64,000 nt of DNA, taken from Candidatus Altimarinota bacterium (lineage in GTDB: Bacteria > Patescibacteriota > Gracilibacteria > BD1-5 > UBA6164). Each line of letters starts with the position of its first letter. The first letter of the stretch is position 1. The stretch spans positions 124,001 through 188,000 of the forward strand of contig JACFNZ010000001.1 of assembly GCA_019454605.1 (NCBI GenBank), written 5' to 3'. This document shows, piece after piece, positions 1-59,642 of the stretch. Under the pieces are notes generated by a model. That model saw only the letters and a list, made by a program, of their open reading frames with translations, was not told the origin of the DNA and did no database searches. The position numbers and the translations under genes were made by a program.

Positions 1-3000
1 TTATTTTTGTTTTTTAAAGTATTATTGTTATCTAATCATAATTTAGTTAAATATAGTTTCTCAATAAGAGTTTTATATTTATTATCATTATAATCAATAT
101 AAGTTCATCTTGTCTTTATATCAATAAAATCAATACTTAGATTTTTAATAAATAAATCTATTATTTTTAAAAGATCTTTTTTCTTTCAATATAGTTTTTT
201 ATATAAAATAATTTCTCAATTTTTTACTATATAGACTTTATTGATTTTTATAACATCAGGTAATGATGTGAATTGATTAAGAAACAAGTCGGTATATAGC
301 ATATAAGGATTTATTAGTATATCTGTTGATATATCTTCCTCATTAGTATTATAAATTTTTACTATATCTATTCATTTCTTTATTGATTTTTTAATATCAA
401 TCTTATTTATAAAATTAGTATTATTTAAAACTTCAAATCAAGAAATTTCTTTTCATCATTTAAAACTAAGATTATTCTTTGAACTAGATTTTAGTGAAGA
501 TACTAGTTTTTTACTCATTCAAATATTTATAATTTCTTCTTTATGAATAACTTTATATCTAACTTTAAATATCTTTAAAATAGTTTCTGATATATTTCAA
601 ATATTTACATCATAAAAATTCTTTAAATTATTAGAAAAATTATCAAGTTTCTTTAAATACAGTATTTGTTTTATAAAATCAAATACTGAAAATCACTTAT
701 TTTTATATTTTGGAAGAAATAAAAATATAAAATAATTATAAAATTTATTTATATTAATTATTTCACTATTAATATCTATTCATAAAGATTTTTTTATATT
801 AGTAATTAATATATCAATTTTTAATAAAAAATATTTATTTAATAAATATGAATCAAGTATTAAAATTATTAAATATAAGATGAATAATACTACCATTATA
901 AATAACAGATAATATTTCAATCAACTAACATATGTAAAAATTTTATTTCAGAAATAATTATAAAACTCTATGCTTCAATAAGTAGCATTAAACAAATCTT
1001 TAAAATAATTATTAAATCAAATATTTATTATTCAATTAAAAATATGAAATAACACTCAAATTAAAAATAATAAAAATACTATATTTGATATAAATAATAA
1101 GTATTTTCTTGCTTTATAGGTATTTTTTAAAATTATATAAAATAATACTGAATTTATAACTATAAATAAACTAATAATAATTAAAATTATTATGATTAAA
1201 ATATTATTTATAAAATTATAAATATTTCATAACCAAGCTAAAATAATTATTATAAAAATTATTCATGAATTAGTATAAAATGCTGCTTTTAAAAAATGTA
1301 TATTTAAAATTTTTCATACTAAAATAACAAATAAAAACAATAAAATAAAGGAAGTTAGTAATATAGAAGAAACAATACTTCTTTCATATTTATAATTATA
1401 GTCTCATTTATTTAAAATAGTATTAGTAAGTCATGCTGATATATTTCAAGTTAGATATTTTAACAAATATTCATTTCAATTATCAAATATGGATTTATAA
1501 TTCGTATTATTATCAAGAGTAAAATTTTTAATATCTATATTTTCAGATTCTTGAATTCTAGTTTTATCAATATATTTTTTTATAAAGGTTATATCATTAT
1601 TCAAGTATCAACTATTGTAAAAATTTTGCTCTAATTGATTTTTTACTATATATTCATATGTTTTATCTAAATCTTGTTTTTGCTCCAAATTATTTACTAA
1701 ATAATCATTTATATAGTCAGAAAAATTTTCATCATAAATATTATTTTTAAAAACTTCTTCAATTCTTGATTTTATATCTAAAACTAAATCTACTTTTAAA
1801 ACATCATCAGTATTTACATAAAAATCTTGCTGATTTCAATCATTAAATCAAAAATCAACTCAAGAATCATTTCAATTTGAAGATGTAGCATCAAAAAAAT
1901 ATACTTTATCAAAAATTTTTACTTCAGTCCATTGGTGTCAAACTCATCAAATTACTCAATATCAACTTTTATTTTCACTTCATAAGAATCAAGTTATTTT
2001 TTCTGATTTAAATCATAAATATTCAGAAATAACTCTAAATAAGTCATTTGCCGATTCACAATACAATCAATCACTTGTATATAAAAAATCAAGAAAATCA
2101 GGACTTAGATCTTCTTTTTTTTGATAAGGATTATATCTTTTATTTTTTATAAAAGCATAAAAATCAATTAGTGTTTTTAATTTATCACCTCAATTTTCAC
2201 TTATTTTATTATCTATTATAGATTTTAATTTATTTGACAATAAACTAGATTCATATCAATTTTCATGAGTAGAATTATAAGTATAAAAAGTATTATTTGT
2301 TCAATATACAAAAATTTGTTTATATAATTTTTTATCTTTTTTATAATCATCTTCAGTTATTTTTGATATTCAATATACTATTAATCAATCATTATTTAAT
2401 TCTCAATCATAAAAAAAATAACCATAATCGTATTTAATAGAATAATTTATTCATTTTGTTGTTACAAATTTATATCAATAAGGTAGAGTTATTTCTTTAG
2501 ATTTTGTCTTTATAATATAATCTGGATTTGAGTCATAATCTAGTGATTTTATTGATTTGTCGTAAGTTGAATCATTATTTTTAATGAAATATCATAAATT
2601 ATATGTAGTTCTATTAAATAAATACCAATTTTGATTTTTTAAATCTAATAGTTCTTTTTTCTTTTTAGATTTTTCTTCTTCATTTAAAATATATTTAGAT
2701 TCATTTTCTTTTGAAATTATACTAACATCAAGTGATTTTTTTCATTTATCTATTATATTAGATTTATTTTCTGTTTTTATTGAAAATATATTAGTATTTT
2801 TGTTTTCAATTTTTACCTTTTCAATATTTTCTTTATTAGTATGAAAAAAACTAAAAATTATTCAAACAAATATAATTGAAGTAAAAGTTAAAATAGAAAA
2901 GATTATATATTTATTTCATTTGTGTTTTTTAATAGTTTCATCCTCTTTTTTTGGAATAAATCAAAATCTATTTTTAATATTGTCATACGAGTATATTTTA

Positions 3001-3278
3001 TCTAAATGAAAAATATTTCATCAATTTATTTCTTTTGATATAGCATCTTCTAGATTTATTTCTTTTCATATTTTTAAATTTGATAATAATAATTCTTTTG
3101 TATTTATATCATCTAAATTATCCTTTAAATATAAAAATATTGTTTGTTTATAATTTTCTTCAAATGACAAAATACTATAATTTTTTATAAAAAAATCATA
3201 GTATTTATCATTTAAAATCAGATTATTTATTATCTCTGAATTACTTAGTTGTAAATTCAATTTTTCTAATGTTGTCAT
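1..3278 (-). CDS. Membrane protein with transglutaminase-like domain (C-terminus beyond window)
   Basis: A reading frame of about 1090 codons is open from ATG at 3276-3278 to the window edge without TAA/TAG, using many TGA codons as glycine, so the C-terminus is cut off. A hydrophobic segment lies near residues 115-140. A transglutaminase-like core follows: Cys407 in CESANDLF, His448 in GHQWTEV and Asp463 in FFDATSS form the expected Cys-His-Asp triad. After it come several strongly hydrophobic stretches (roughly residues 590-830), so it is a multi-pass membrane protein with the enzyme domain probably outside the cytoplasm. The family contains both cross-linking enzymes and proteases, so the reaction is not known. 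The next gene, a lipoprotein, lies directly upstream on the same strand and may supply a partner. Confident about the fold, not about the substrate. Confidence 0.7.
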
Positions 3279-3288
3279 TAATTTTTTA

Positions 3289-4428
3289 TTAACTTTTCAT
3301 TAAATAAACTTTTTTTGTTTTTGGATTGAATAATACATATCAATATTTATTAGTAGATTCAAAACTAAAATCAAATTTAGATGTTGAATATATTAAATAT
3401 GATTCATATGAAATTCAATTTAAATCAATATTTTCTAAACTTTTAAATTTTATAGTTAATCATTTATCGTCTTTTTCATCAAAGTATAATGTTTCTAGAT
3501 AATCTGAATTTATATCATAAACTTTAATATTTTTATAAAACCTATCAAATTTTAATTCATTTCTTAAAGTTAAAAATTTTTCAACTTTTCCAATATTTTG
3601 ATCAAAATCTACTTTTGTTTCATTTTGATTAATATTTTCAAGAAATTGTTTACCTATTTTATCTTTATAATTTACAAAATCAATTTTGTCTTGTATAAAA
3701 TTTTTCTCACTTGAGTAATTAGTATTAATATATAAGTTTATAGTAACTTTATTATCTTTTATATCTGATACTGACAAATAATTAGCACTATTATTATAAT
3801 AATACTTTTTAATTCAATCACTTGATTTTTCAGCATAAAAGTATTTATTCAATATATCCATTGAATTATTAAAAATATTATTATCAACAACTACACAAGA
3901 GATATCTGCAAATCAAGATACAGTAATTACATTATCATTACAAATTAATCATTCATCAAGAAAATCAAATACACTTTTTTTATCAGTATTATTTATAATT
4001 ACTCAACTATTACTTTTAATTTCATTATTCTCAGAAATAGTTTTTCATTTAGAATATTTTTCTAATTCATTTATAATTTTTAGATTATTTCAGTTTGGTG
4101 ATAATCAATTACTATCACATTTATTATCACATTTCATTGTTTTATTAGATACACTTATCCAATTTTTTTGATCAAAACTCCAAAACCAAGCAGAATTATC
4201 TTTTTTAAAGTAAACACTTTTTTCATATATTGATAATCAATTTATTATTTTAGAATTTTGTAAACTTTTATATGTATTATTTTCAGATTTTTCAAAAAAA
4301 TTATCAATAATAATCTGTTCTCAATTAATTTTAGTATCAATTTTAGAAGAAGATAATGGTTTATTATTATTAGTTCAACACGATGTAAGTAATAGTAATA
4401 ATAAAGAGATTAATAATTTATTTTTCAT
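3289..4428 (-). CDS. Predicted lipoprotein, function unknown
   Basis: 379 residues with a classical lipoprotein signal: MKNK, a run of leucines, then TSCG with the lipobox Cys at about residue 17, so it should be lipidated and anchored on the outer face of the membrane. The rest is polar, rich in Asn, Lys and Tyr, with no domain I recognise. The stop (TAA at 3289-3291) lies 10 bases before the transglutaminase-like gene start, so the two are probably co-transcribed. The TGA after the lipobox Cys reads as the usual glycine. Assignment as lipoprotein is firm; the role is unknown. Confidence 0.75.
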
Positions 4429-4529
4429 ATTTTCTAAATTAAGTTATAAAATATTTTACTTACATATTAGTAATAATTTTTTCAAAGTTTTCTTTTAAAA
4501 CTTTTGATTTCAATTGTTTTTTTCATAGA

Positions 4530-5783
4530 TTATTTAATTATTTTTAATAATTGTTTTACTATTTCGTAATTTTTAGTTCATGCTTTTAATTTTGATAATA
4601 TTTCTGTTAATTTATTTTTTATATTGTTCTTTTCTTTTTCTGATAATAATTTGTATTTATCATAAAAACTATTAACTGTTCTTACATCATTTACAGTCAT
4701 TTCATATGAGGTAAGATTTTTATTTGTTAAATTATATCTATAAGTTCCATCTTTGCCATCTTCTTTTCTAAAAGGAAATTGAAAAGAATTATCTTTAGAG
4801 TTATATGAAATTTCCCGAGTAGCAATATTTCATAAACTTTTTACTACTTTCCCATTAACAATAAAATACTTTGTTCAATTTTTATCAGCTATATATGCTA
4901 AATTATTAAAATCATCTGAAAATACTAATCATCAATTTATAGAATTATTTATATAATTATAGCCTTCTGATATTACTCAATTATTAACTACATATGTATT
5001 ATCTCATTTTGAAAAAGTAAATGCATATTTTTCTCAATTTGTTGAACTTATAAATTTAATATAATTTCAATAATTTCAGTTATTAATAAAATCTGCATCA
5101 AAAGTTAAAATTTTATTAGTATTTTTAATTAAATTCCATTTTCAGTCTTTTTTTCAAAAATAAAAATAGTTTTTTCAATCTCAAGAAAAATCTACTCAAA
5201 TAATTCAGAACTCTGAAATGCTTTCTTGAAGTGTATTAAATTCTTCTCATTTAACTCAATCTACAACAATATATTTTTTTCAATTATTTCATCAAAAAAA
5301 TATTACTTTATTTGAGTTTGGAATATATTGAAATAGATCATAAATATCAGTTAAAAATCATAAATCAATTTTTTTTCAATTCTTAATCAAATATTTATTA
5401 TTTCAATTAATTCATATATATGAATAATCTGTTCAATCGGAAGAATATAAAACTAATAATTCAAAAATTCCATCAAACTCTTCTCATTTAGTTCAATCTT
5501 TTACAACAAAATATTTATTTCATTTTTTAGCAACAAATAGAAAACTTTCTTTATTTGGAGATAGTTTAAAATAATGATATTCTGGTAATCATAATTTATC
5601 ATAATTTGAAACTTTATCATACTTTTCAATCAATTGAGAGTTTTTATAAAAACTATAACCATCAAGATAGTATTCGTCTCAATTTTTTAATTTAATTTTA
5701 GTAGATGAATTTTCTTCAGCAAAAACATTATTAAAAATTAAAAACGAGATTACTGTTATTATTATAGGCATTATCTTTTTCAT
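4530..5783 (-). CDS. Exported repeat protein, propeller-like
   Basis: 417 residues starting MKKIMPIIITVISFLIF and ending its signal near NNVFAEE, a normal Sec signal peptide. The mature part is built of repeated units of about 50 residues, each pairing a line such as KYFVVKDGTKGEEFDGI with a line such as SSDGTDYSYIGINGNNKYL. The alternation of a surface read-out strand with a D-G turn resembles WG-type or TolB-like beta-propeller blades. The C-terminus (last 60 residues) is helical and lysine-rich. It sits with the lipoprotein and transglutaminase-like genes on the same strand. Binding role is inferred only from the fold-like repetition. Confidence 0.6.
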
Positions 5784-5823
5784 AATATAATAGTTAAGAA
5801 TATAAAAATTAATTAATTTTGTA

Positions 5824-6387
5824 TTATTTAGGATTTTGAAGTTCATATAATTTTTCTCACATAGTTTTATAATTTTCAGGGTTTAAATAATAACTTCATA
5901 GAAATACAAGTCATATTCATAATAAAATTCATATACTTATTAATGTTTTTCTATTTTCTTTTGAAAATAATATTTTAATATTTTTTATTGGATAAAATAG
6001 CATTAAATAAAAAATTCACCATGATATAATAAAAACAAAAAATATTAACCAAAAAATCCAACCTCATGCAACAAAAATATTTGGTAATGGAATTTCTTTT
6101 TTTAAGTAAAAAAATAAAAATATCATATATATTAAAAGTAATCAGTCTAATGATCAATGAGTTATAGGTGTTAACATAAATAAAAACCATAAAACAGATA
6201 TCAATACAAGATTTGTTTTTATATTTTTAGTTCACTTAAATATTTGATTGTTTATATTTCAAGCACAATCTTCACATATAATTTTTCAATCATAAGTGAA
6301 TTTATCCGAACATTCTTTACATAAAAATTTTCAACAATTTACACATTGTGAAACAGAGTCTTTATCATTATGATAATAGCATTTCAT
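5824..6387 (-). CDS. Zinc-finger (B-box-like) membrane protein
   Basis: 187 residues. The N-terminus has a metal-binding cluster, CYYHNDKDSVSQCVNCGKFL followed by CKEC and CEDC, similar to the B-box type zinc fingers found in many bacterial membrane proteins. Three or four hydrophobic helices follow from about residue 55. The ATG at 6385-6387 gives the complete finger. Glycines are mostly TGA. It is the most upstream gene of the minus-strand group running to position 1. Function unknown; such proteins are often described as B-box zinc finger proteins without a defined role. Confidence 0.6.
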
Positions 6388-6400
6388 AATTTGAAAATTA

Positions 6401-6438
6401 ACAAATAAAAAGAATCTTACTAATAAGAGTAAGATTCT
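6401..6438 (-). terminator. Intrinsic terminator reading leftward
   Basis: Perfect 10-bp inverted repeat AGAATCTTAC / GTAAGATTCT (6411-6420 with 6429-6438), followed on the minus strand by TTTTATTT. No protein gene ends here on that strand, so it would end a non-coding transcript coming from the structured region at 6457-6636. Confidence 0.6.
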
Positions 6439-6640
6439 AATTTGTTGATTTTTTCTTGGTGAAAACTTTTAACAAAGTAGAGAGGACTTACCCTTTAAAT
6501 TTTCACCACAAAAATTTTATTCTAAGTTTTGATATATTAAAAACATTAGAGAAAGGTAAAATCCTCTCTAATTTATTTTTAATACATCAAAAAATAAAAA
6601 AACTTATAGTAAATAAAATTTTTGTGGTGCTTTAAATATA
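6439..6640. ncRNA. Candidate structured RNA with competing hairpins
   Basis: Non-coding stretch with strong pairing. An 18-bp perfect inverted repeat (6504-6521 with 6612-6629, beginning CACCACAAAAATTT) encloses further nested stems: GATATATTAAAAA with TTTTTAATACATC, and ATTAGAG with CTCTAAT. A second hairpin, TGGTGAAAA (6457-6465) with TTTTCACCA (6500-6508), overlaps the first stem at 6504-6508, so both cannot form together. Segment 6479-6496 is also largely complementary to 6552-6569. A leftward terminator at 6401-6438 suggests transcription on the minus strand. It lacks the signatures I know for SRP, RNase P, tmRNA or 6S RNA. It could instead be a DNA element (origin or miniature inverted-repeat element). 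Confidence 0.45.
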
Positions 6641-6898
6641 GTTTTTTCTTAGAAAATGTCAAAAGAAAGCGAAGTAAAAGCAGAAAAAAAGTAGAAAAAA
6701 TTTTTCTTTAAAAAAAGTCTAAGGAGTTATTTTTAATTAATATAATATGTATAGAAATATATAAATCTTAAAATCTTGGTAAAAGTTAATTTTGAAATGA
6801 AAAATACTATTTATAGAAATAAAATTTTAAAAAAATATAAAATAAAAAATTTTTCTAAAAAAATTAATATAATACTAAATATTGAGATATATTCTCCA
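6641..6898. other. Gene-free AT-rich spacer
   Basis: No reading frame is supported under code 25. Two near-copies of AATTAATATAATA occur (about 6736 and 6862), either of which could hold a -10 element. Nothing else was recognised. Confidence 0.4.
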
Positions 6899-6954: not shown

Positions 6955-6982
6955 ACATTTATTTATTAATAATTTGTTACTT

Positions 6983-8122
6983 ATGTTAAACCTAATTACC
7001 CTAAAAGTTCTTTCTATATTCTCTTGAATATGAGCATTTGAATTTGTTTTTAATTTATTAAAAGAGTTTTTTAATGTTGAAGTTGTATGATATAGCGAAA
7101 TAGATAAATATGCTATTAAAACTTATGAAAAAAACTTTCCACGAATTCCTAATTTGTGAGATGCAAAAAAAATTATCACTTCAAAACTTAAAGATTTTGA
7201 TATATTAGTTTGATGATTCCCTTGCCAAGACTTCTCTATTAATGGAAAAAGAAAATGACTAGAGTGAAATAGATGATCATTATTTTTTGAATTGTTAAGA
7301 ATATTAAAAGATAAAAAACCAAAGTATTTTATCTTCGAAAATGTAAAATGATTATTAAGTCAAAATGAATGAAAAGATTTTCAAATCATTCTTAATGAAT
7401 TAGAGAATGCTTGATATATAGTGAAATATAAAGTTCTAAATGCAAAGAATTTCGGTTTACCACAAAATAGAGAAAGAGTATTCATTATTTGACAAAGAAA
7501 AGATCTTTGAACTTTTGATCTAGATATACCAACTACTAATTGAAATAATAAAGCAATATTAATGGATGTTCTTGATGATGAAGTTCATGAGAAATATTAC
7601 AAAAATCAAAAAAGAATTCTATGAATGTATAATTCAAAGTTCCAAAGCGAGAGAGTTGAATCACAAGATAAAGTATGTTGATGTCTAATGGTTTGATGAA
7701 GTAAAAAAAGTATTGTTCTAAATAAAGATAAAGAATTTATTAAAAGATTCAATAACAAAAAACTAAATATTCATGAACTTAATGATCTTATTATAAGACA
7801 ACTAACACCTAATGAATACGAAAGGATTAGTTGATTTCCAACTTGATTCACTTCATGAGTTAGTGAAACTCAAAGATATAAACAAATTGGTAATAGCATT
7901 GCAATTAATGTTTTATTTGAAGTATGTAAAAGTTTATTTCAATTTATCAAAGGTAATCAAAAATTTGATACTAAATTCATTAATAATGTTTCTAATAAAT
8001 CTAAACAAACAAATTTAGAAAGATATAAAAAAGGATTTAATACAAAGAAAGAAAAATATAAAAACAAAGTTTTATCTAAATTAGAAGAAAGTGCTTTTTT
8101 CGAAGAAACTAATGAGTTTTAA
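6983..8122 (+). CDS. DNA (cytosine-5) methyltransferase
   Basis: 379 residues with the ordered motifs of C5-cytosine methyltransferases: motif I FSGIGAFE near residue 14 (S-adenosylmethionine binding), motif IV GGFPCQDFS with the catalytic Cys, motif VI ENVKGLL, motif VIII QNRERVFIIG, and motifs IX-X RQLTPNEYERISGFP and QIGNSI near the end. It transfers a methyl group to C5 of cytosine in a target sequence that cannot be read from the protein. About 50 basic, Lys-rich residues extend beyond motif X. No recognisable cognate restriction enzyme follows, so it may be a solitary or phage/plasmid-type enzyme. The start is the ATG closest to motif I. It contains one CGA codon (in the segment before NLGDAKK), rare in this genome. 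Confidence 0.93.
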
Positions 8123-8390: not shown

Positions 8391-9884
8391 ATGAAAAATA
8401 TAAAATTACATTTATGATTGATAAAATTCATAAAATATGTGAAAGAAAAGTGATCTTTAATAATAAAAGATTACACTCAAATAATAGATGATATATTCAA
8501 TGTAAAAGATACAATAAACTTATTTTTCTCTATTAATTGATATAAAAAATGAACGAAAAATAGAAAACAGGAAAATATAAGCTCCTTTAATTTTTTCTTT
8601 TTTGATGTTGATATGAAAGATAATAAACATCTAACTAAAGAAGAAATAGTTGAAAAATTTGAAGAATTTAAAGATTCTTTTGATATAATTCTAGTCACTA
8701 AAAACTGAGTTCAATCGTTTATTGAGATTAAAGAAAATGAGTATTGAAATAATACTTGAAAATTAGATTTTGATTGATATCTAAGAGATTGGAGAACAAA
8801 AATAGAAAAATTCTCTTATGAAATGTGACTTAATTTTGATAAAAATTGCATAAAGACGACACAGATAGCTAGAATTCCTTTTAGTATTCATAAGAAACCA
8901 GAACAAGAAAAGTTTGAAATAAAACTTATCAAATGAGATAAATTTCTTAAGTGAGAAACTACCATGGAAATTATCAACAAAGTTCCTATTCTTAATGTAA
9001 TAGAAAGATTATGATTAAAATATAATCCTCATAATTTTGCTTTGTATGATTTAACTTGAGAAGAAAGTAGTTGATGGAGAATAAATGTTGAGGAAAATTA
9101 TGTGAATGACTTGTCCAAAGTAAGACCAAAATGAGAACCTTTTGCTTTTGTTTTATGATTTTTAAATTTAAAAAATTGAGTGAGAGATGCAAATTATTGA
9201 TTAACATATAAATTTTTTGAAGAAAATTTTTGAATTATTGGAAGAGAAAAAAGAGAAAAAACTATCAAAGTAAACAAGGCTATTTCTCTTAATATAGAAA
9301 ATTGAAATCTAACAAAAGAAAATATAAAATATTTTCTACATCTACAATATCGAAATACAAAAAATAGTATAAATGATTGAAAATACAGTAATCGCATTAG
9401 TTTGGATGAATTTATCAATTTTATATGAGATGAGAAGTTAAAAAAGACTACTCTAAAAACAAATTTAGAAAATTTGAATAAAAATAATAAGTTAGAAACA
9501 AATATTTTAGATTTTGAAGTAGTAAATATCGAATTTAAAAAAGAAAAATGAGTTCATTTTAGGTTTGTAATCTTACCAGAAATAGATGAATTAAAAGATC
9601 AAATATATGACTCTAGATTTTATCATTATTTCAACAAATGAATATTGAATTACAAATTAATAAATAATGAAATTTTGAGTCTATATTTTCATCTTCACAA
9701 AAAATTAATTGTTTCAAAAAGAGAAAGTATATTTCTAAAAAATGAGTTTATAGATAGTTTTAAGATCAATAAAAATCCAAGTTTGAGAAATAAAATCTTA
9801 AAAGAACATTTCGAAGAGTTATGAGATTTTGAAATAAAAAAAATAAAAAAAGATGGATTTGAAATAATCAACAAAAAAATCTAA
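8391..9884 (+). CDS. Putative primase-like (AEP-type) replication protein
   Basis: 497 residues from ATG at 8391. The frame is the only one open through the region when TGA is glycine; a nearby ATG at 8414 leads quickly to TAA. Around residue 70 there is FFFFDVDMKD, resembling the acidic Asp-x-Asp site of archaeo-eukaryotic primases, then a beta-rich stretch LVTKNGVQSFIEIKEN, and later ARIPFSIHKK, resembling the R-x-P-x-S-x-H-x-K motif of the same superfamily. The C-terminal 60 residues look like a winged-helix (LKNEFIDSFKINKNPSLRNK). This layout is common in plasmid and virus replication proteins. I see no helicase Walker motif. It could alternatively be another nucleic-acid enzyme; similarity is weak and based on short motifs. 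Confidence 0.42.
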
Positions 9885-9888
9885 AAAA

Positions 9889-9911
9889 ATGAAAATTTTT
9901 TCAATTTTCAT
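9889..9911 (+). terminator. Hairpin after the primase-like gene
   Basis: Inverted repeat ATGAAAATT / AATTTTCAT five bases after the TAA. There is no U-run behind it, so termination strength is doubtful. Confidence 0.35.
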
Positions 9912-9954
9912 TATATATAATATTATTACTATTTTATTAATTAATTTGCAAATT

Positions 9955-10317
9955 ATGGAGAGATCTAGATTAAACTTAAACGAATGTTTTTTTATTATTC
10001 TTAAATGATGAATTAAAAAAGAATACATTATGAAAAAAATTGAAAAAACTCTTGAGGAAAAAGAGTTTAAAGCTGTAAGTGTTTTTATTGATTGAATACA
10101 AAAAAGACATATTGATGAAACTGATAAGAATCTGTTTGATATAGTTAATTTCTTTAATGAAGATTTACTTAATTTATCTTTGAAGGTTCTAGCGAGAAAA
10201 AAACAAGCATATCTAGAAGAGATTATAAAAATGGTCGCGATTGCCTACAATTGAAATTTTAATCTAGATTTGAGATGATGGATTATCAGTTATAGAGATG
10301 GAAAGATAAGTTTTTAA
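9955..10317 (+). CDS. Small hypothetical protein
   Basis: 120 residues from the first ATG (9955), or 95 if translation begins at the in-frame ATG at 10030 (MKKIEKTLEEKEFKAVSVF). The second start gives a cleaner protein. The body is helical, charged and ends DLRGWIISYRDGKISF. I do not recognise a family. It follows the primase-like gene and ends just before a good terminator, so it belongs to the same accessory island; a role in replication control or DNA binding would be a guess. Confidence 0.5.
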
Positions 10318-15666: not shown

Positions 15667-16767
15667 TTAGTTAATTAAATTTAAATCTTTAAATCAAGCA
15701 TTTACAACTTCTTGTTCTATCAAACTAGTTCTTAGATTTAAAGCACTATTTGTAGATAAAAAACTTACTTTTTCCCAATTTATTTTATAAAAAAATAAAT
15801 CTTTTAATTTTCTCTTATCTTGTAAAAAAACTATTCAATATCATCTTCTATTTGGTAGCTCTTCAAAAGAATTATAAGCTTTCATTCATTTAAAACAAGT
15901 TGAAGGCAAATAAACATCACACTTATCTAACATATTTTTATTTCTTGTACTACCTGGAGTTCATCAATCAGATAAAGAATAAACTTTTATAAAACTTTTA
16001 CAACTATCTTGTTTTAAAATTTTAATTTTGTGAGTATTTTTTTTAGTCCAAACTTGAAAAATAGTAGCAACTTCTACTTCTTTTCAGTCAGGATATTCAA
16101 AAGAGTTTAAAGGTAATTTTTCAGTATAAGCAAGTTCATATCATTTTATTCTTTTTTTAGGAACTCATTTTCAATCACTATCAAATAATGGTGGTAATAT
16201 AAAACTAACAACATCAGCAAAATCTAAAGAGTGATTTATAAATCTCAAAGCTAAATTTCATCTAAGTCAAAAAGGGGGATTTCATATAACAATATATTTT
16301 TTATTTAAATCTTTAGGAAAAAAATCTAAATAATTATCTTTTATTAATTCATTTGCTAATTCTCATTTAGGCTCTATATCTATTCAAATTCTTCTTTGTT
16401 TTGGTAAAATATTATAAAAATTACAACATCAAGCACTTGGTTCAATGAAAGTATATTCTTCTTCATTAATATCTAAATCTTTTAAAACTTCTAAAGTTTT
16501 CTCAAAACAATATTTTGATATTTTTTTAGTTGTATAAAATTGGTCTTTCTCTCTAAAAGTATTTTTTAATTTATATTTATTTCAAAGTAAAAAATTCAAA
16601 TCATTTAAATAGTTATCTGGAACCTTATTTTGAGAAATCCATCTTTTAATAGTTCAAATATTTAATCAAATTCAAGCTTGAATTTGATTAATTCATAAAA
16701 CATCTAAGCACTCATTAAATAAAAAAGTAGCTGTTATTTTATTTTGATCTAATAAAGTTACATTCAT
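15667..16767 (-). CDS. Type II DNA methyltransferase (N6-adenine/N4-cytosine) with N-terminal HTH
   Basis: 366 residues. The SAM-binding motif appears as FIEPSAGCCNFYNILP (about residue 110) and the catalytic motif as VIGNPPFG, which identifies an amino-methyltransferase acting on adenine N6 or cytosine N4. The first 50 residues contain a helix-turn-helix-like unit (GINQIQAGIGLNIGTIKRWI), which could let the enzyme regulate its own operon. It protects host DNA from the nuclease encoded immediately downstream. The C-terminal half is the presumed target-recognition part, without recognisable motifs. Start is the ATG at 16765-16767. Gly is encoded mainly by TGA, so the system is adapted to the host code. 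Confidence 0.88.
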
Positions 16768-17969: not shown

Positions 17970-19361
<1,392 letters not shown>

Positions 19362-19389
19362 AATAAATTAAGTTAATAAGTTAAAATTT

Positions 19390-19461
19390 TTTTATAAATT
19401 AGAAATTAGGAGTTAGAAATTAGAAAGTTTATATAATTTACAATTCTCAATTCCTAATTTT
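19390..19461. repeat. AATTAG-type short repeats at the rnhA-atpD junction
   Basis: Several AAATTAG/GAGTTAG units in a row, then AATTCTCAATTCCTAATTTT (19442-19461), which recurs exactly at 42711-42730 at the end of rpoA. Both copies overlap or touch the stop codon of a minus-strand gene. Confidence 0.6.
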
Positions 19462-19858
19462 TTTCATCCATTGCCACATTTGACAATCTATCAGCTTCTT
19501 TATTTAATTCTCTTTCTATCCAGGTATATTTTATTTTTATATTATTTTCTAAAATAAGTTCTAGTATATCGTTATTTAATTTTTTAAGCTCTTCTTTTTT
19601 TATCTTCCATCTTCAACTTAATTGTTCAATTACAAGTTTTGAATCTGCAAAATAATCAACTTCTGTTGCTCAAAGCTCTATTGCTCTTTTTATTCATAAA
19701 TAACATCAAATATACTCTGCTTCATTATTTGTCTTTATTCAAAGATTTTTATATCTTTTCTCTAAGCTTTTTCAGTTTTCATCTGTTATATAAATTCAAG
19801 CTCAGGCATTTCAAGGATTTCATCTACTTCATCAATCTGTATAAACTTTTAATTTCAT
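19454..19858 (-). CDS. rnhA: Ribonuclease HI
   Basis: 134 residues. Active-site carboxylates are visible: YTDGGSRGNPGNAGAGIY (first Asp), NNEAEYIGCYLGIKRAIE (Glu), YFADSKLVIEQLSG (Asp) and the final WIERELNKEADRLSN (Asp). It cleaves RNA in RNA-DNA hybrids. It starts immediately after the toxin gene stop and ends 92 bases before atpD, so it sits inside the ATP synthase operon, which is unusual. The stop is TAG. Confidence 0.94.
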
Positions 19859-19859
19859 A

Positions 19860-20138
19860 TTATAAATAGTTTTTGGGAAATGTTTTATAAAAATCTCATC
19901 TTGATTTTAAAACTAAAATATCAATATTATCTTTATTTACAAAAAATCAAATTCTATAATCTCAAATTCTAAACCTATAAAATCCTTTACTTCAAGATAA
20001 TTTTTTTACTCAATTTATTTTAAGTAAATCATTAGTATTTTTTAGTTTTTCTAAAAAATCAAAAATATTATTTTTATAATCATCATCAATTTTTTCAAAA
20101 GATTTTATAAAGTTTTTATGTATTTTTATATTAAACAT
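19860..20138 (-). CDS. RelE/ParE-family toxin
   Basis: 92 residues with the RelE/ParE fold pattern: MFNIKIHKNFIKSFEKIDD, LKINGVKKLSGSKGFYRFRI, GDYRIGFFVNKDNIDILVLK and RGDFYKTF at the end. Members are mRNA-cleaving or gyrase-inhibiting toxins; the GFYRFRIGDYRI segment is typical. A small antitoxin gene ends 2 bases before its start, the expected order. Gly codons are TGA, so the pair has adapted to this host. It lies between atpG and rnhA/atpD. Confidence 0.87.
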
Positions 20139-58190: not shown

Positions 58191-59642
58191 ATGGCAAATG
58201 AAACTGTTATAAGTTTTAAGTGAGTAGAATTTAATTATGACCATAGAAAACCAATTTTAGAAGATGTTACTTTTAACATAAGAGCATGATCTAAAATAAC
58301 TTTAATGTGACAAAATTGAGCTTGAAAATCAACTATTTTTAAACTTATTAATTGAGGTTTAAAGCAACTTTCTTGAATAATAAATATTGACTTAAATGCA
58401 ACTATTGCTACTTGATATCAAGTAGTTTTACCAGAAGATAAAGAATTAACTGTTTGAGATTTTTTTAGAAAATATCATAGAGATAAAACTCAATTCAATA
58501 TTGATAAAGATATAAAAGAGATTTTAGATGTTGTAAATTTAAATGCTCCTTTAGATAGGATTATTAAAAGTTTTTCTGGATGACAACAAGCAAGATTATT
58601 ACTTGCAAGTGCTTTGATTCAAAAACCTGATATTTTATTACTTGATGAACCTACAAACAATTTAGATAAAGATGGTATTTGGAGTTTAACAAATTTCTTA
58701 CAAAATTACAAAAAAACTGTTATTGTAATTTCTCATGATGCTGAATTTTTAAATAGTTTTACTGATTGAGTAGTTTATCTTGATAGTAATACAAAAACAA
58801 CTGAGCAGTTTGTTTGAGATTATAACGATGTAGTTGAGCAAATTAAAAGAAAAATTGAAAAAGATAATCAAGCAAATGCAAGACTTGCAAAAGAAGCTCA
58901 AGCAAAAAAAGAACAAGCTGAAGTTTTTGCCCATAAATGATGAAAACTAAGAGCTGTTGCTAAAAAAATGAGAGAATTAGCTGATGATATGGAAGATGAT
59001 ATAGTTGATACAAGAAAAGAAGATAAAACTATTAGAGAATTTAAAATTCCTCTTCAAGATGATATTTGATGAGTTTTATTAAAAATAAGACAAGTAACTA
59101 TTATAAAAAATAACAAACCTACTAAAAAAGATGTAGAATTTGATTTAAGAAAAGATGATCATATACTACTTTCTTGACCAAATGGTATTTGAAAATCAAC
59201 TTTACTTGAAAAAATAGTAAATCAAAGTGAATCTTGAGTTGAAGTAGCTTCTTGAGTAAAAATATGATATTATAGACAAGATTTTTCAAACCTCGACTTT
59301 AAACAATCAGTTTATGATTGTTTAAGAGAAGCTGCTTGAAATGATATGACAGAGCAAGATTTAAGATCTATTGCTGCTTGATTTTTAATTACTTGAGATA
59401 TTATGAAATCAGAGATTTGATTTTTATCTGAATGACAAAAATGACTTGTAGCATTTTGTAGATTAGTATTTTTAAAACCTTGAATCTTAATTTTAGATGA
59501 GCCTACAAATCATATAAATTTTAGACATATCCCAGTTATAGCTAAAGCACTAGATGAATTTGAGTGATGAATGATTTTAGTTTCACATGTAGATGAATTT
59601 GTTTGGCAAATTAGAATTGACCAATATATTGATTTAGATTAA
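58191..59642 (+). CDS. ABC-F family ATPase
   Basis: 483 residues with two ABC cassettes. Cassette 1: Walker [15 protein letters not shown], signature [15 protein letters not shown], Walker [12 protein letters not shown]. Cassette 2: [14 protein letters not shown], signature LSEGQKGLVAFC, Walker [14 protein letters not shown] charged linker with coiled-coil character ([20 protein letters not shown]) lies between them. No membrane part. Members act on ribosomes as translation factors or antibiotic-protection proteins. Its short linker suggests an EttA/Uup-like housekeeping role, but this is not certain. Confidence 0.93.

Follow-up and report, generated by a model that had tools for sequence, protein, structure and literature searches.

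A putative family of bistable, attenuator-type 5' leader RNAs ahead of restriction-modification and other genes in Gracilibacteria

Our results point to a new family of bistable 5' leader RNAs in the tiny Gracilibacteria, to which the element studied here most probably belongs and whose members would control the next gene by transcription attenuation. The element lies in a window of 64,000 nucleotides (the whole stretch of DNA that was analysed). On the minus strand, at about 6662-6404, a promoter is followed by stem A:B with a hairpin nested inside it; then come segment Y, which is complementary to that hairpin's apical segment X, and a terminator (Table 1). Across the family, the promoter is likewise followed by A-X-B-Y-C, the terminal hairpin and the start codon, in that order, and judged from the sequences the leader probably decides whether transcription enters the gene behind it. 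As in an attenuator, a terminator lies between promoter and gene, and mutually exclusive helices are both conserved.

Table 1. Parts of the leader RNA and neighbouring genes in the window
Feature	Positions	Strand	Remarks
Promoter	6635-6662	-	-35 TTGACA 6662-6657, 16-nt spacer, -10 TATATT 6640-6635; 11 of 12 consensus matches
Perfect 18-nt inverted repeat	6504-6521/6612-6629		repeats together span 126 nt
Segment A	6612-6629	-	5' arm of closing stem P1 (A:B), near predicted transcript start
Segment B	6504-6521	-	3' arm of P1; also within 5' arm of alternative hairpin P3 (B:C)
Nested hairpin, arms	6517-6556/6563-6602
Hairpin P2	6530-6589	-	6576-6589 with 6530-6543, then 6565-6571 with 6546-6552; covariation
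Segment X	6552-6569	-	lies apically in P2; Y is its complement
Segment Y	6479-6496	-	complement of X; in the window's sub-family, terminator 5' arm is another possible partner
Complementary stretches	6471-6496/6552-6577		81% over 26 nt; include 6479-6496/6552-6569
Second hairpin, arms	6451-6468/6497-6514		has arm 6504-6521 in common with the inverted repeat
Segment C	6451-6468	-	alternative partner of B (P3, Y in its loop)
Terminator	6404-6438	-	hairpin 6438-6411 plus T-run, 23 nt before start codon
First gene after leader	5824-6387	-	187-aa membrane protein, N-terminal zinc-ribbon/B-box-like stretch; code 25
Propeller-like protein	4530-5846	-	name from reading the sequence
Lipoprotein	3289-4428	-	name from reading the sequence
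1100-aa membrane protein	3-3278	-	transglutaminase-like stretch, name from reading the sequence
C5 DNA methyltransferase	6974-8122	+	divergent from leader

An earlier note on this DNA had described an 18-bp inverted repeat, a nested hairpin, a second hairpin sharing an arm with the repeat and the complementarity between X and Y, all of which lie where it placed them. Thermodynamic folding gave a z-score of about -9 on either strand, with none of 200 shuffles equally stable, and a terminator scan found terminators at the locus far above shuffles. The predicted leader is about 225 nt long, and equivalent -35 and -10 boxes are present in its relatives. Because the promoter lies on the minus strand, the covariance-model score at the locus is 131.9 bits there and 18.6 bits on the plus strand, and the helices carry an excess of G-U pairs (described below), we take the minus strand to be that of the leader.

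The gene that follows becomes visible only with the right genetic code. TGA encodes glycine in this genome (code 25): code 11 gives almost no reading frames and code 25 fills the window, and the C5 methyltransferase read under code 25 matches PF00145 (E 7e-82). Under this code, the first gene begins 23 nt past the terminator hairpin, and the RNA is therefore a 5' leader. The leftward terminator of the earlier note thus stands, but not its statement that there was no protein gene to serve, which stemmed from use of the standard code. The row of genes behind the leader encodes the membrane protein, a propeller-like protein, a lipoprotein, a large transglutaminase-like membrane protein and a MoxR ATPase, where the names propeller, lipoprotein and transglutaminase come from reading the sequences, with no Pfam match above the cut-off; among the proteins after the first gene, MoxR alone had such a match. 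If the attenuation model is right, as we think likely, this row would be the unit regulated in the window.

Several relatives of the leader keep its pairings with different letters. Plain DNA similarity searches returned mostly AT-rich noise, and one true relative, in another genus (genome G008, locus L012), was recognised only after the locus had been re-aligned. It is 67% identical over 287 columns and shares the promoter and architecture, with a divergent C5 methyltransferase too. A two-sequence covariance model found two further members in G068 and one weak one in G007, and a four-sequence model gave additional weak matches, one of them a further copy in the same genome as the window, in which the pairings are kept and the letters differ; model E-values near 1e-3 resembled chance, and inspection showed real members. 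An eight-sequence model gave 46 matches in 35 of the 77 genomes of the order, and a direct scan of upstream DNA added 4-5 members, for a total of 51. The distribution is patchy, with several copies in some genomes. Scans of 353 genomes from the class and 380 from the phylum gave no match outside the order, a weak negative given that few candidates were scored per genome. Likewise, no covariance model of Rfam 15 matched at its gathering score, and one scan gave chance-level matches only, in line with an uncatalogued family.

The window's genome (G000) holds three copies: the window locus, C3:55938-56086 and C6:190978-191124. The C3 copy (L054, 7939-10274) stands directly before an EcoRI-type methyltransferase gene and then a gene named DUF262/HNH-like from its sequence, whose product may be the nuclease partner of that methyltransferase. 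The other C6 copy, roughly 3 kb beyond the window's right end (L089, G000:C6:189400-192700, RNA at 1579-1725 on the minus strand), lies directly before a C5 methyltransferase gene.

Covariation supports the proposed structure. In four sequences aligned with MAFFT without structure, both positions change in 12 of 39 pairs, a count reached in none of 500 shuffles, and sliding the partner abolishes the signal. With 46 sequences the count rises to 37 of 39 pairs (again 0 of 500 shuffles), in an alignment that was fitted to the structure model, so that this count leans towards the model. The helix pairs include 158 G-U against 21 A-C, an excess that argues for selection on the leader-strand RNA. 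These compensatory changes bear out the suggestion in the earlier note that this might be a new RNA family.

Compensatory change preserves helices A:B, P2, B:C and X:Y, and in most members also A:B', in which A pairs with a second, TTTTGGC-like version of B (B') located at the terminal hairpin's foot. Complementarity between X and Y is found in all members (-24.7 kcal/mol with the own partner versus -13.0 with permuted partners, p 2e-4), and own partners also exceed permuted ones for B:C (-17.2 versus -11.8 kcal/mol) and A:B' (-9.6 versus -7.2 kcal/mol, z -7.4), in tests that kinship among the sequences inflates. The typical letters are GCCAAAAT for A, GTTTTGGC for B, GCYAAAAC for C and ATTTTGGC for B', with perfect fits of B with C and of B' with A. 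Three members before other EcoRI-type genes (L101, L102 and L104) have the same pairing relations despite wholly different letters (GCTTACAACCGAGG ... TTGTAAGC ... GCTTACAA ... CTCGGC). A:B and B:C are mutually exclusive, yet both exceed permuted partners, and the mutually exclusive folds that the earlier note had read from this one locus thus reappear in relatives as conserved competing helices. When folding was followed along the growing transcript, with programs that score no pseudoknots, A:B came first (0.83), and once C was out B:C reached 0.56 versus 0.30 for A:B. Two other readings were set aside: C:B' as the main antiterminator is weaker than A:B', and a Shine-Dalgarno/anti-Shine-Dalgarno role for X and Y suits some members only.

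These results are consistent with a strand-exchange model in which A:B (P1) would form first and the emerging C could then take B from A. The X:Y contact would aid this exchange, since Y sits in the B:C loop. The freed A would pair with B'; since B' and the foot of the terminal hairpin overlap, termination would be prevented and the gene turned on; if A:B persisted, the terminal hairpin would form, transcription would stop and the gene would be off. The assignment of on and off is the least certain part of the mechanism. One point against the general model is the window's own sub-family of five members (G000, G008, two of G068, and G031), in which B' is missing and A:B is predicted to stay dominant. 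There, Y may pair with the 5' arm of the terminator instead (-9.3 for own versus -4.3 for shuffled sequences, p 0.003), a comparison that covers five sequences and is not specific to the own partner.

The position of the terminal hairpin bears on how the leader would act. In 44 of the 51 members, versus 3 of 55 control genes, the distance from a hairpin's end to the start codon is at most 22 nt, with the window's copy and L032 falling just beyond this limit, and a terminal hairpin with a T-run is found in 37 members versus 2 of the 55 controls. It is possible, if rather doubtful, that this leader family exerts mainly translational control, in which the hairpin would block ribosome access, exchange among A, B, C and B' would open it, and termination would be secondary. 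The terminal hairpin ends a median of 7 nt before the start codon, which would fit such a role, as would the lack of a T-run in several members, among them L075, L092 and L097. However, TTTT precedes the start codon after 37 of the 44 hairpins, and at the window's locus the terminators stand far above shuffles. We favour attenuation of transcription for the family, while members that lack a T-run may act on translation.

The identity of the genes behind the leader is equally informative. By Pfam, 22 of 45 downstream proteins belong to restriction-modification versus 1 of 55 other window genes (Fisher 9e-9): 13 EcoRI-type adenine methyltransferases, 4 N6/N4 and 2 C5 methyltransferases, one Tsp45I-type endonuclease, one Mrr-type endonuclease and one HsdR-type protein. 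The other downstream proteins are mainly secreted, membrane or zinc-ribbon proteins. The order holds 20 full-length EcoRI-type genes, 13 of them with a leader found by the scan and 4-5 more by direct upstream search. The earlier note had drawn attention to a methyltransferase near the locus; the family is indeed tied to restriction-modification genes, but in the window the methyltransferase is divergent and not downstream. A divergent C5 methyltransferase stands beside the leader in 4 of the 5 members of the window's sub-family and is peculiar to it, and we rejected the idea that the RNA belongs to the C5 methyltransferase as a general rule.

This arrangement also weighs on whether the RNA is instead a free-standing, trans-acting small RNA, with a terminator that merely ends it and a bystander as the next gene. 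Its own promoter, strong terminator and length of about 225 nt would suit that reading, which we nonetheless consider unlikely: in nearly all of the 51 loci the RNA lies directly before a start codon on the same strand, ahead of many unrelated gene families, and it precedes 17-18 of the 20 EcoRI-type methyltransferase genes. A riboswitch for a small molecule, such as the methyltransferase co-substrate S-adenosylmethionine, appears quite improbable as well. The combination of leader and terminator and the 19 DNA methyltransferases among 45 downstream genes would fit one, but many downstream genes lack a link to S-adenosylmethionine, there is no Rfam match, and the strongly conserved columns sit in helices, with no conserved unpaired core seen. 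For this last reason, a kinetic, RNA-responsive or protein-responsive switch is favoured over a small-molecule aptamer. A DNA-level element (a transposon end, an integron-like attachment site, a replication origin or a plasmid copy-control locus), to which inverted repeats, accessory gene neighbourhoods and a patchy distribution might point, is very unlikely in view of the G-U excess, which is expected only under selection on one RNA strand, and conflicts with the fixed order of promoter, leader, hairpin and gene on chromosomal contigs and with a viral-contig search in which no contig had the exact family pattern. No transposase was found among the classified neighbours. The locus lies on a 302-kb contig, has no iteron-like tandem array and has relatives that precede unrelated genes; the copy-control RNA or origin suggested in the earlier note gives way to a chromosomal 5' leader that immediately precedes genes of unrelated kinds at about 50 loci.

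Several further features of the neighbourhood were observed. The row from the membrane protein to MoxR occupies 3-5846 of the window and 19061-19960 of locus L027 (both minus strand); its 1100-aa protein occurs in G000 and G068 only, among 47 family genomes, and both carry the leader. This row is an accessory gene cassette. Judged by eye, genes on the left side of the window and outside it (L027 62-11831, G000:C6) are HsdS/HsdM-like (type I) and McrBC-like, which suggests that a defence island continues there. Primase-like proteins lie near the leader in two genomes (window 8391-9884 and L055 8750-10489, both plus strand), their mutual similarity being judged by eye; the window protein has a weak match to phrog_2478 (E 9e-4). 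Beyond the C5 methyltransferase, four related loci encode a small protein of 120-142 aa that matches no Pfam family (window 9889-10317, L024 10345-10707, L025 11270-11677 and L026 3691-4053). A type II methyltransferase at 15667-16767 on the minus strand (E 2e-54) has no leader RNA before its gene in the scan, and thus not all methyltransferases of this genome have one. A defence ATPase-like protein at 58191-59642 on the plus strand matches mad3 (E 6e-41) and, more weakly, the mad8 and AriA defence models; it was set aside as having no link to the leader.

The family would act like an attenuator, yet no known family matches it. In the open-access literature, we found no earlier description of it or of a structured leader RNA for restriction-modification genes, which is not proof of novelty. 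Tentatively, it could be the first family of cis-acting RNA switches used mainly for restriction-modification and other horizontally acquired genes, in which a strand-exchange leader would time or hold back methyltransferase expression on entry into a new cell or during phage attack, through detection of an RNA, protein or metabolite of cellular or foreign origin. With about 50 members and strong covariation, the structure is testable at once. Our work raises the question of how horizontally acquired defence genes are controlled at start-up without a C protein, and the trigger, once found, could reveal a new kind of sensor of infection or entry.

Finally, the leader can be set beside known RNA regulators. 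Like 6S RNA, it combines its own promoter with a long, closed hairpin that measures about 200 nt, but it differs in being patchy, multi-copy and placed before genes, and in having no Rfam match. Trp-type attenuators (1:2/2:3/3:4) and the expression platforms of riboswitches share its main design, in which helices that exclude one another lie in a 5' leader and a terminator stands ahead of the gene. In contrast to these, no conserved leader peptide, known aptamer or Rfam match was seen in the present family, which adds the extended complementarity of X to Y and an exchange, A:B', that involves the 5' end, stands mostly before restriction-modification and surface-protein genes and was found only in one code-25 order. 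For restriction-modification genes themselves, two reviews cover antisense RNAs and promoter regulators, and a text search found riboswitches mentioned in neither (PMC3874152, PMC12707154). The antisense RNAs described there for EcoRI and Eco29kI arise from reverse promoters inside the genes (PMC3874152, PMC12707154). On that account, the two kinds of control have in common that RNA regulates restriction-modification genes, whereas the family described here would do so as a structured sense leader in cis.
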